Assembly: GCA_005889405.1 (NCBI GenBank) | Contig: VBFY01000067.1 | Span: 1-58,223 of the forward strand | DNA length: 58,223 nucleotides | Direction of reading: 5' to 3' | Source: Chloroflexota bacterium | GTDB taxonomy: Bacteria > Chloroflexota > Limnocylindria > P2-11E | Shown: positions 10,140 through 13,730 of the stretch, piece by piece | How positions within the stretch are numbered: position 1 is the stretch's first letter | Layout of the letters: the number at the start of each line of letters is the position of its first letter | Made by a program: the position numbers and the translations under genes | Notes under the pieces: model-generated | Told to the model about the DNA's origin: nothing | Seen by the model: the letters and a program-made list of their open reading frames with translations, nothing else | Databases searched by the model: none

Positions 10140-11660
10140 ATGAACGCTGCCCGTAGCGTCGGAGTGGTGGACGCGGCGTATGACATCGAGGCGAGCGTGC
10201 CAAGGGCGATGAGCACGCAGCACCCCGACAACGTCGCGACACCGATCTTCAGCCGCGACTCGCTCATGAGCGCCGAGGATGAGGTCCGCGAAGCCTTCTA
10301 CGCCTTCGCCCACCTCGGATGCGACGAGCAGATGTGGGACTTCGAGGGAAAGGAGGTCGACAACTTCGTCGTCCAGAAGCTCCTCGCTTCGAACGAGCAG
10401 TACTTTCGAGCGAATCCTCTCGGCGAGCGGCTTCGGCTGACGCCGCGAGTGCCAAATCCCCGGTTCGAGCGCGTGCAGGCGAAGGGGCTGCTCGAGGTGC
10501 TGCACAGCCTTCCGCGTCACGCCGATGCGGCCCGTCTCTTCTTTGGAGCGTCGCGGCCGCCGATCGTCGAGCTGATCTTTCCGATGACCACCTCGGCCAT
10601 CGAGCTGGAGCGGATCCGCTCGTATTACCTACGGAACGTGGTCGAGGCCGCGAATGCACCGATCGTTCCCGGCGATATCTCGGTGGCCACCTGGTGCGGA
10701 GCGTTCGAGCCCGCGAGCGTCGGTGTCATCCCGCTGATCGAGGACCTTCCGTACCTCCTTCAGCCCGAAGCGATCGTCGCCGATTACGTAGCGGGCAAGG
10801 GCCTGCCGTATCAGCGGGTGTTCATCGCCCGATCCGACCCGGCGCTCAACTACGGTCTGATCGCGGCGGTCCTTGCGTCGCTCGTGGCACTCGACAAGCT
10901 CGACAGCCTGGAGCAGCACCTCGGGATCCCGATCCTCCCGATCATCGGCTGTGGCAGCGCGCCGTTCCGTGGCGGACTGCGGCCGGACTCTACGGAGCGC
11001 GTCCTGGCGACATATCCGAGCGTCCAGACGTTCACGCTCCAGTCCGCATTCAAGTACGATTACCCCGCGGAGCAGGTGCGCCGAGCGATCGAGACGCTGC
11101 GTGCGACGCGACGTGGTCCGCCGGTAAAGGTCGCCGATGACATGCGACTGCTCGCCCTCATCCCACGCGCCGCTGATCGATATCGCGCCGAGGTGCGTGA
11201 GATCGCCGCACTCGTGAACCAGATGGCGCCGCACGTCCCGCGCCGACGTCTTCGCAAGCTGCACATCGGCCTGTTCGGCTATTCCCGAGAAGGTGAGGAT
11301 ATGTCGCTTCCGCGCGCCATCACGTTCTGCGCGTCGCTGTATTCGGTCGGGCTACCGCCGGAGCTGCTCGGATTCGCCGCGCTCGACCGTGGCGAATGGG
11401 AGTACGTCAGAGAGCGCGTACCAGGTCTCGCGTGCCATATCGAAGAAGGACTCGCGCTGCTCGATCCCGAGACCGAGTCCCGGCTGCCGCCGCTCGTTGC
11501 TGAGAGCGTGCGGGCGGCGCGCGAGCGGTGCGTTGCTGAGTCGAATGAGGAACACCTGGAAATCGTGCGTCAGATTCGCGCGCGCTTAGGCGACGGTCAG
11601 ATGTATCTGTTGCCTGAGCTGATCGCGCGCGCGGGCGGCGCGCGGCGATTCCTCGGATAG
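10140..11660 (+). CDS. ppcA: Phosphoenolpyruvate carboxylase, archaeal type
   Basis: The enzyme adds bicarbonate to PEP to make oxaloacetate, replenishing the citric acid cycle. At 506 residues it is the short archaeal-type form, about half the size of common bacterial PEPC. Signatures are the MSTQHPDN start block (residues 24-31), the YLRNVVEAANAPIVPGDISV region, FKYDYPAEQVRRAI, and GLFGYSREGEDMSLPRAITF. The ATG at 10140 is the longest start; the ATG at 10209, beginning MSTQHPDN, is nearly as likely. It appears to be monocistronic and ends just before a tRNA gene on the other strand. Confidence 0.93.
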   Translation: MNAARSVGVVDAAYDIEASVPRAMSTQHPDNVATPIFSRDSLMSAEDEVREAFYAFAHLGCDEQMWDFEGKEVDNFVVQKLLASNEQYFRANPLGERLRLTPRVPNPRFERVQAKGLLEVLHSLPRHADAARLFFGASRPPIVELIFPMTTSAIELERIRSYYLRNVVEAANAPIVPGDISVATWCGAFEPASVGVIPLIEDLPYLLQPEAIVADYVAGKGLPYQRVFIARSDPALNYGLIAAVLASLVALDKLDSLEQHLGIPILPIIGCGSAPFRGGLRPDSTERVLATYPSVQTFTLQSAFKYDYPAEQVRRAIETLRATRRGPPVKVADDMRLLALIPRAADRYRAEVREIAALVNQMAPHVPRRRLRKLHIGLFGYSREGEDMSLPRAITFCASLYSVGLPPELLGFAALDRGEWEYVRERVPGLACHIEEGLALLDPETESRLPPLVAESVRAARERCVAESNEEHLEIVRQIRARLGDGQMYLLPELIARAGGARRFLG

Positions 11661-11691
11661 ACCGGCTCGTGACTCGAGCCAGCATTCCCAG

Positions 11692-11762
11692 AGCGGGAGA
11701 CGAGAATCGAACTCGCATCGCTTGCTTGGGAAGCAAGCACTCTACCACTGAGCTACTCCCGC
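11692..11762 (-). tRNA. tRNA-Gly (CCC)
   Basis: The minus strand folds into a complete 71-nt cloverleaf: acceptor GCGGGAG/CTCCCGC, D arm GCTC...GAGT, anticodon stem CTTGC/GCAAG closing the loop TTCCCAA (anticodon CCC), T arm GCGAG TTCGATT CTCGT. The discriminator base is T and the 3' CCA is not encoded. It reads the GGG codon, which is used often in a GC-rich genome. Confidence 0.95.
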
Positions 11763-11774
11763 GTGACGTGAATT

Positions 11775-12731
11775 CTAAGCGGACTCTCGAATCCATTTCG
11801 ACCAACTGAATTGCTGTGCCGTTCGCAAGCGGTGGCAGTTCGCGCACCTCACATCACACTTGGCGATCTCGCTTAGCAGGGTCGACCATGACGCCCTGCT
11901 TAGCATCGCTCCGACATTACCGACCTTGGTCGTCCCTTCGCGGTGATCGAATTCGAGCACGACGGGATCTGTCTCACCGCAGTCGACGCAGGGATGCCAC
12001 GCAAGATAGGTCATCAGCCAGGACCAGTAAGTGTCGCGAACGTCGCGACGAGCCCGCACGCGTGATGTGTACTTCTCGCGGTTCTGCTCGTAATGCCGCC
12101 TGCCGTAAGCCGAGCGACATGCCCGGCAAAGCGTTCCGCGCCGACCGGTTTGCTTGTTCTTGATGGGGAACTCAGCGACCGGTCGCTCGAGACCGCAACC
12201 CGTGCACTTCTTCGTCTCGCTGGCGATCCCGCCACGCGATGTTTCGGCTTCGTCTGAGGGAATCACGCGTTCGAGCCAGGCGCCCTCAGTAAGCGGACGA
12301 CCCGCGACTTTCTTCCAGGTGAACTGCCGGGCCGTTCTTCGGAGATGGCAATTAGCGCAGCGTACGTCGCATTTTGCGATCTCAACGAGCACCAGGCGCC
12401 ACGGCTTGCGCATCGCGAGCTCGCTCACGTTGCCGTTCTTCTTTGCTGGCTCGCGGTGGTCGAAGTCAAGCATCACGGGCTCGGTCTGGCCGCAATCGAC
12501 GCAGGGGTGCGCGACGAGATATGCAAGCATCAAGACGCGGTTCTCGATCCGGTACCTGTTCATGCGCGCGACCTCACGTTTGATGTAGTCGTGGCGATTC
12601 GCGAGGTAATGAGCGCGCCGATACGCGGCTTGGCACTTCCGGCAGTGCCGCTGTCGTGTTCCCTTCGCGATGTTGTCGAAGGCGAACTCCGCCTCAGGCT
12701 TGGTCTGGCCGCACATGTAGCAGGTGAGCAC
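11775..12731 (-). CDS. HNH-type protein with two tandem copies of the whole zinc-finger/HNH unit
   Basis: The 318-residue protein is a near-complete duplication. Each half (about 1-150 and 170-318) has an N-terminal CxxC..CxxC zinc knuckle (CGQTKP...CRKC; CGLERP...CRAC). A helix with HY follows, then an HNH-like core: HPCVDCG, a LDFDHRE / LEFDHRE strand, and KCDVRCANCH. HNH folds are metal-dependent nucleases, so DNA cutting is likely but unproven. The GTG start at 12731 has GGAGG 6 nt upstream. It lies 12 nt from tRNA-Gly and is preceded by a LexA-like box. Single-unit relatives are common; the double form is odd. Confidence 0.8.
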   Translation of the reverse strand: MLTCYMCGQTKPEAEFAFDNIAKGTRQRHCRKCQAAYRRAHYLANRHDYIKREVARMNRYRIENRVLMLAYLVAHPCVDCGQTEPVMLDFDHREPAKKNGNVSELAMRKPWRLVLVEIAKCDVRCANCHLRRTARQFTWKKVAGRPLTEGAWLERVIPSDEAETSRGGIASETKKCTGCGLERPVAEFPIKNKQTGRRGTLCRACRSAYGRRHYEQNREKYTSRVRARRDVRDTYWSWLMTYLAWHPCVDCGETDPVVLEFDHREGTTKVGNVGAMLSRASWSTLLSEIAKCDVRCANCHRLRTAQQFSWSKWIRESA

Positions 12732-12773
12732 GGTCGCCTCCGAGGGACCGTGGCGAACACCTCAGGTCGGCCT

Positions 12774-12791
12774 CTAGAACACATGTTCTAG
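12774..12791. promoter_or_regulatory. LexA-like SOS box upstream of the HNH gene
   Basis: CTAGAACACATGTTCTAG is an inverted repeat with two perfect 8-bp arms around CA. Its centre, GAACACATGTTC (12777-12788), fits the GAACnnnnGTTC operator of LexA in Bacillus, Mycobacterium and related bacteria. It is AT-richer than its surroundings. It lies about 43 bp before the HNH start on one side and 60 bp before the PIG-L gene on the other. Regulation by DNA damage is inferred from the site only. Confidence 0.6.
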
Positions 12792-12851
12792 CAGGATCCC
12801 GACGCCGGTGCAAGGGAATTTCGCGCGTCCGACTCTTGTCATGCTTCACGC

Positions 12852-13730
12852 ATGCGCTTTGACGAGGACCTCGAGATCGAACGCGCGATGGTGATCTACG
12901 CCCATCCCGACGACGCCGAGTTCGGCGTGGCCGGCACGGTCGCGAAATGGGCGAAGGCCGGAGTCGAGGTCACGTACTGCATGGTGACGAACGGAGCGTC
13001 GGGTTCGCAGGATCCGGAGATGACGCGCGAGAAGCTGCGCGAGATGCGCTACGACGAACAGAAGCGAGCCGCCAAGATCCTCGGCGTCACCCACGTCGTC
13101 TTCCTCGGCTACGAGGACGGATATCTCTACCCGACGCTCGAGGTGCGCAGGGACGTCGCGCGCCAGGTGCGGATCCATAGACCGGACGTGATCATCGCGA
13201 TGGACCCTCGCTTTCGCGTCGCCGACGAGGGCTACGTCAATCATCCCGATCACATCGCCGCGGGCGAGGTCGCGCTCCGCACGATCAACCCCGACGCGTC
13301 GACCCGCCAGATGTTCCCGGAGCTCTGGCGTGACGAGAAGCTGGAGCCACACAAGCCGAAGGCGCTCTTCCTCGAGACGTTCGGCGAGGGCGGCATGGTC
13401 ATCGACATCAGCGACACGATGGACACGAAGATCAAGGCGCTGCTCGTCCACAAATCGCAACTTGGACCGGAGGCTGCGGGGTTCATCCGCGAGTGGAACA
13501 AGCGCACCGGCAAGGCCGCCGGCTACAAGTTCGGCGAGTCCTACAAGGTCATCCGGCTCGACCGCGAGCCCGCTGCCGAGGCGAAGCCGCGCCGCCGCGC
13601 GCGGCCGGCAAGCGCGGCGTCCAAAGGTGCTGCGCGAGCGCGACGTTCCGTCCCGCGAACGTCACGCCCTCGCGCTGGAGGCGCGCGCGCTGCGAAACGA
13701 AGTGGGGGGCGAGCCCGCCACTCGCGTTGA
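12852..13730 (+). CDS. PIG-L (LmbE-like) deacetylase
   Basis: PIG-L proteins remove acetyl groups from N-acetylglucosaminyl conjugates or related amides using zinc. The zinc pocket is visible: YAHPDDAEFGVAGT (residues 17-30), with HPDD, and NHPDHIAAGEVA (about 138-149) with the HxxH pattern. The final 55 residues are an Arg/Ala/Ser-rich low-complexity tail that lies opposite the MGMT-like gene. The enzymatic domain ends near residue 235, before the tail. CATGCT sits 6 nt before the ATG and may be a weak -10. Substrate unknown; mycothiol- or bacillithiol-type deacetylases are relatives. Confidence 0.85.
   Translation: MRFDEDLEIERAMVIYAHPDDAEFGVAGTVAKWAKAGVEVTYCMVTNGASGSQDPEMTREKLREMRYDEQKRAAKILGVTHVVFLGYEDGYLYPTLEVRRDVARQVRIHRPDVIIAMDPRFRVADEGYVNHPDHIAAGEVALRTINPDASTRQMFPELWRDEKLEPHKPKALFLETFGEGGMVIDISDTMDTKIKALLVHKSQLGPEAAGFIREWNKRTGKAAGYKFGESYKVIRLDREPAAEAKPRRRARPASAASKGAARARRSVPRTSRPRAGGARAAKRSGGRARHSR

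Follow-up and report, generated by a model that had tools for sequence, protein, structure and literature searches.

A doubled HNH endonuclease gene with a LexA-type operator beside tRNA-Gly(CCC) in a Chloroflexota bacterium

With respect to endonucleases associated with tRNA genes, SegB is a GIY-YIG nuclease rather than an HNH enzyme, and we know of no SOS control acting on it. SegB of T4-like phages is a homing endonuclease of the free-standing kind that is linked with tRNA genes (PMC13096335); it is phage-borne, whereas the gene described here is chromosomal. Both mycobacteria and mycobacteriophages have been reported to carry HNH genes within tRNA arrays (PMC5966550, PMC6409571), and these may or may not belong to the family considered below. 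A close likeness is offered by the PHROG 2255 endonucleases, which share a profile spanning a zinc knuckle and an HNH unit and whose viral representatives sit directly beside tRNA genes. Specifically, the viral kin are single-unit proteins (74 of 74), in contrast to the chromosomal, doubled and, judging from its operator, LexA-controlled gene analyzed here.

In terms of regulation, the mycobacterial 13E12 (DUF222–HNH) repeat proteins have been reported in the LexA regulon, and they resemble our gene product as HNH proteins under LexA but differ in architecture, DUF222 being absent from the latter. Integron integrases are tyrosine recombinases, and to our knowledge tandem doubling has not been described for T4 endonuclease VII or F-CphI. 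The integrases are held by LexA and released by the SOS response, also on conjugation (PMC3108266, PMC2958807), which makes them comparable as mobile-DNA enzymes under LexA, although they are not endonucleases. For T4 endonuclease VII and F-CphI (PMC6083498), the likeness is a weak sequence similarity of the protein described here to phage endonuclease VII profiles, its best profile being instead PHROG 2255. HNH–tRNA pairs are already known from phages, but a search of the open-access literature yielded no LexA-controlled or doubled HNH gene beside a tRNA gene, nor the doubled, LexA-controlled chromosomal form. We describe such a gene in a 58,223-nucleotide contig (VBFY01000067.1 of assembly GCA_005889405.1), hereafter the window.

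Architecture of the two-unit protein

The gene and the elements of its product map as follows.

11775–12731, minus strand: gene for the doubled HNH endonuclease of 318 aa, opening with GTG at 12731 and closing with a TAG stop at 11775 (11777–11775)
12737–12741, minus strand: Shine–Dalgarno sequence GGAGG, read from the sequence
12633–12722, minus strand: zinc knuckle of unit 1 (Cys 4, 7, 30, 33), (nearly) invariant in 16 doubled homologues
12345–12503, minus strand: HNH core of unit 1 (C77-x2-C80, D91-H92, C125-x2-C128-H129), from the alignment, with the secondary structure of the model fitting a ββα-metal core
12225–12314, minus strand: disordered inter-unit linker, residues 140–169, pLDDT <50
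12117–12206, minus strand: zinc knuckle of unit 2 (Cys 176, 179, 202, 205), invariant
11832–11990, minus strand: HNH core of unit 2 (C248-x2-C251, D262-H263, C296-x2-C299-H300), from the alignment and the model

The protein consists of one unit present twice, and each copy combines a zinc knuckle of four cysteines with a pair of helices and an HNH core. The repeated motifs (HPCVDCG twice, DFDHRE and EFDHRE, KCDVRCANCH twice) and the coordinates above bear out the original prediction of two whole zinc-knuckle-plus-HNH copies in one chain. Loss of the HNH metal residues from both halves, named there as counter-evidence to the reading as a whole, is not seen: metal and zinc residues are intact in each half, and neither half varies in its core cysteines, D-H pair or C-x2-CH ending among the 16 doubled homologues that were aligned. 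Structure prediction of the two halves agrees with this picture, as the AlphaFold model (mean pLDDT 84) gives them the same order of elements and an HNH-like core, joined by the disordered linker. The features of the HNH superfamily, namely a D-H pair, zinc cysteines and a C-x2-CH ending within a ββα core, are present in both halves.

The PHROG 2255 HNH endonuclease profile matched the window protein in two stretches, each covering most of a unit (E 5e-69), and the same search revealed weak similarity to phage endonuclease VII profiles. No Pfam family and no NCBIfam model scored above cut-off for the window protein, a DUF222 match was absent, and 0 PADLOC families matched. Fold searches with the model returned confident matches to phage and giant-virus HNH models only (viral HNH models, E 1e-11 to 4e-15), and the best matches in the PDB were insignificant (Hpy99I, E 5.4). 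The possibility that the linker is a relic of a tRNA was rejected, its similarity not rising above that of shuffles, and an endonuclease encoded by a group I or II intron was likewise rejected, Rfam detecting the tRNA alone over 11000–13500.

Operator and promoter

Upstream of the gene, two further elements were identified.

12774–12791, no strand assigned: LexA operator CTAGAACACATGTTCTAG, core GAACACATGTTC at 12777–12788, of the same kind as that upstream of lexA
12785–12813, minus strand: putative promoter, from its match to consensus, with -35 TTGCAC (12813–12808), a 17-bp spacer and -10 TAGAAC (12790–12785)

The perfect operator with 8-bp arms (CTAGAACA/TGTTCTAG, 12774–12791) was found as predicted, and lies 45 bp before the HNH start rather than the roughly 43 bp originally given. 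The putative -10 of the HNH promoter overlaps it; an operator of the lexA type is present at the promoter, as expected for a gene of the LexA regulon. The 12-mer alone is insignificant in the window, where 0.88 such sequences are expected by chance; its significance comes from comparison with lexA genes and orthologues, which also rules out a chance palindrome. Specifically, a perfect operator occupies about the same place in 27 of 27 lexA genes found in the order. Over 3.05 Mb of this genome, the GAAC-N4-GTTC pattern has just 32 occurrences (reversed control, 21), and it stands directly before lexA, uvrB, an imuA-like recA paralogue, dnaB and a radical-SAM gene. Comparison with the genome's own lexA and recA, as originally proposed, was thus favorable for lexA, which has the same operator, and unfavorable for the main recA gene, from which it is absent.

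Orthologues of the window gene (group A, see below) for which upstream DNA was available carry the box in 10 of 10 cases, 6 perfect and 4 with one mismatch. One genome (G015) is informative: it retains the divergent PIG-L gene, but of the HNH gene only a remnant is left and the box has degenerated to GCAC-N4-GTTC. The box therefore belonged to the HNH gene, and the alternative that it serves PIG-L was rejected on this ground. Taken together, these observations make it very probable that LexA regulates the window gene, and the operator and the intact residues support, at the level of sequence, the earlier suggestion that a covalently doubled HNH protein is under DNA-damage control.

The leader between box and start (12732–12776) is conserved in the relatives L074, L077, L078, L080 and L081, where it holds a GACCTCAGAGGTC palindrome near the start. 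A structured leader RNA at this position was considered and rejected, the folding energy being not unusual and Rfam detecting only the tRNA. Separately, two adjacent GAAC-N4-GTTC boxes at G000:C50:34724 and 34744 (L022) precede what is likely a further SOS gene, the product of which has LKTILGVDLAPQRPRF close to its start.

Linkage to tRNA genes, selection and decay

Downstream, the HNH gene is followed by a tRNA gene and its likely promoter element.

11691–11762, minus strand: tRNA-Gly(CCC), on the same strand as the HNH gene and 12 bp after its stop, identified with Rfam
11772–11777, minus strand: TAGAAT, likely -10 of tRNA-Gly, read from the sequence and containing the HNH stop TAG; similar hexamers precede many homologous tRNA genes

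The 12-bp gap confirms that the gene abuts tRNA-Gly. Homologues are present in 23 of the 29 genomes of the order, and we sorted them into groups A to H according to the adjacent tRNA and to a tree that is built on few columns and has several open forks. All group A orthologues with a 3′ flank adjoin tRNA-Gly(CCC), broken copies included, and other groups have their own partners: Gly(TCC) for C, Arg(TCG)/Arg(ACG) for D, Arg(TCT) for E and Pro(TGG) for F. Group B is doubled and often located away from tRNA genes. Its representative on contig C70 is a second gene of the doubled HNH type in this genome and starts 16 bp after a perfect box; group B members with upstream DNA have a perfect box in 14 of 15 cases and a near one with a mismatch in 1 of 15. 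The box is retained across most paralogue groups; because paralogues of group D, located between two tRNA-Arg genes, mostly lack it, the box is not a fixed or intrinsic part of the gene. The upstream neighbour of group A (family fam1) is shared by several genera and extends to another family within the order, as judged by ORF clustering, tblastx being too noisy in GC-rich DNA. Group A is accordingly seen as an old resident, and the shared neighbour speaks against recent mobility. At three F-type loci (tRNA-Pro TGG; L102, L104, L105), two tandem HNH units were observed as separate adjacent frames, unfused.

The linkage extends well beyond the order. In a scan of bacterial genomes that took in Patescibacteria, Eremiobacterota, Acidobacteria, Planctomycetes and Actinobacteria, and in which about 20 of 76 loci belonged to the order of the window or to its near relatives, a tRNA gene lay within 300 bp at 68 of the 76 loci versus 76 of 1142 control positions at the same loci (6.7%). 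The corresponding figures for viral contigs were 64 of 74 loci versus 222 of 654 control positions (34%). The HNH stop falls on tRNA nucleotides 8–10 at 20 genome loci and 13 viral loci, annotated phage kin overlap or adjoin tRNA genes, and in some loci the tRNA is oriented opposite to the HNH gene. Most family members from outside the order have a single unit, and none was seen with a perfect GAAC-N4-GTTC upstream. The original prediction had viewed the tRNA gene as a common landing site for mobile DNA; adjacency instead proved to be a family-wide property in bacteria and phages, and the integrase landing-site reading was set aside since the linkage belongs to the HNH family itself. Such adjacency favors homing-type targeting of tRNA genes over an integrated element, a repair role or phage defence.

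Group A pairs gave omega values of 0.11–0.16, which indicates purifying selection, and dS values of 1.7–2.2 versus 0.6–1.0 for readable flanking genes in the same genome pairs, flanking "controls" with omega >1 being ignored as they look like shadow frames. A dS above that of flanking genes is expected if alleles are exchanged at the site, and can alternatively be caused by relaxed codon use. The C-terminal halves of the HNH proteins are about 40–68% identical within one genus. Broken copies occupy 5 of 15 tRNA-Gly loci (G015, G021, G028, G012, G010), some of which could be assembly errors in metagenome bins. The position of the HNH gene varies within a conserved Pro-Arg(TCT)-His-Lys tRNA array, where it precedes Pro, precedes His, or occurs twice. 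A clean pair of empty and occupied sites was not found among very close relatives.

Several further arrangements were recorded at these loci. Two very different tRNA-Gly(CCC) alleles, GCGGGTGTGTTGTAG... and GCGGGAGTAGCTCAG..., lie beside an HNH gene or remnant and are scattered across several genera. Co-transfer of the G010 tRNA-Gly with the HNH gene from the family of G001, suggested by identical tRNA alleles, was rejected, the HNH genes being not especially close. For the D-type tRNA-Arg(ACG), the orientation in L087, L093, L097 and L082 is opposite to that in L088, L091, L092, L095 and L096, and the two orientations carry different tRNA alleles, at several loci with otherwise conserved flanks; this pattern amounts to tRNA-gene replacement or inversion in place. 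Lastly, L218 presents HNH, tRNA-Pro, HNH and tRNA-Arg in succession; the tRNA-Pro gene is crossed there by an open frame, and the arrangement may illustrate how tandem copies originate.

Models for the function of the gene

The explanation we favor, with about even confidence, is that the window gene encodes an HNH endonuclease of the free-standing, homing type, from a family associated with tRNA genes, doubled into one chain and placed under LexA. Purifying selection, decayed copies, varied array positions and raised dS all fit an enzyme of this type. Without DNA damage, LexA would occupy the -10 of the HNH promoter. A trigger of the SOS response, such as damage or incoming single-stranded DNA, would lead to synthesis of the two-headed nuclease, which would cut DNA at or beside a tRNA-Gly(CCC) gene without the insert, and recombinational repair would then copy the HNH gene and neighbouring tRNA sequence into the break. 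Gating by SOS would let the enzyme act when a recombination partner is present; conjugation triggers SOS, and this would give a LexA-held HNH gene reason to wait for it. Cleavage, the tRNA gene as target, homing and this purpose of the gating are what we infer from the pattern as a whole. Against homing, group A is long resident with fam1 kept, and long residence can mean domestication; the higher dS is also obtainable from relaxed codon use; and a host function would equally explain why most paralogue groups keep the box.

The main rival, which we consider unlikely but serious, is indeed a domesticated SOS nuclease: an old homing endonuclease that the host now employs in DNA repair, for instance on particular DNA structures or at damage sites, with the tRNA neighbourhood as no more than a historical trace. 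The box in most paralogue groups, purifying selection, the vertical synteny of A-type genes across genera and the weak PHROG similarity to endonuclease VII are all consistent with such a role, as are the doubled B-type genes, which have the box in every genome with upstream DNA and are often away from tRNA genes. Domestication sits less well with the fast divergence of the C-terminal half within a genus, repeated loss and decay, a dS exceeding that of the flanking genes, and the tRNA adjacency that lineages without the box also show.

It is improbable that the gene encodes an SOS-induced tRNase, a brake on translation whose HNH units would cut the tRNA of the adjacent gene, or its precursor, while the linked gene resupplies or protects. 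Close pairing of paralogue groups with particular tRNAs and the many overlaps of HNH stop and tRNA start would suit this role, but DNA is the usual substrate of HNH folds, some loci have the tRNA in reverse orientation, and a -10 of its own, which the tRNA appears to possess, would keep it outside LexA control. An anti-phage effector triggered by DNA damage is very improbable, for while SOS control and a nuclease fold would suit one, the window protein has no PADLOC match and phages themselves carry kin.

Returning to homing, a broader proposal, which we advance tentatively and at less than even confidence, is that a bacteria-wide homing family targets chromosomal tRNA genes, and that in one order of soil Chloroflexota its members were fused to covalent dimers and several paralogues, the majority of them located at a tRNA gene of their own, came under SOS control, yielding a damage-gated gene drive that also replaces resident tRNA alleles.

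Kin of phage tRNA-side nucleases reside at tRNA genes in the chromosomes of many phyla and, in one order, apparently under the host's damage repressor. If the gene is domesticated, the SOS regulon gains a nuclease. If homing is correct, the gene would encode a selfish, SOS-gated nuclease with a parallel in the integron integrases under LexA, and would provide an explanation for the replacement and inversion of tRNA genes between related bacteria.
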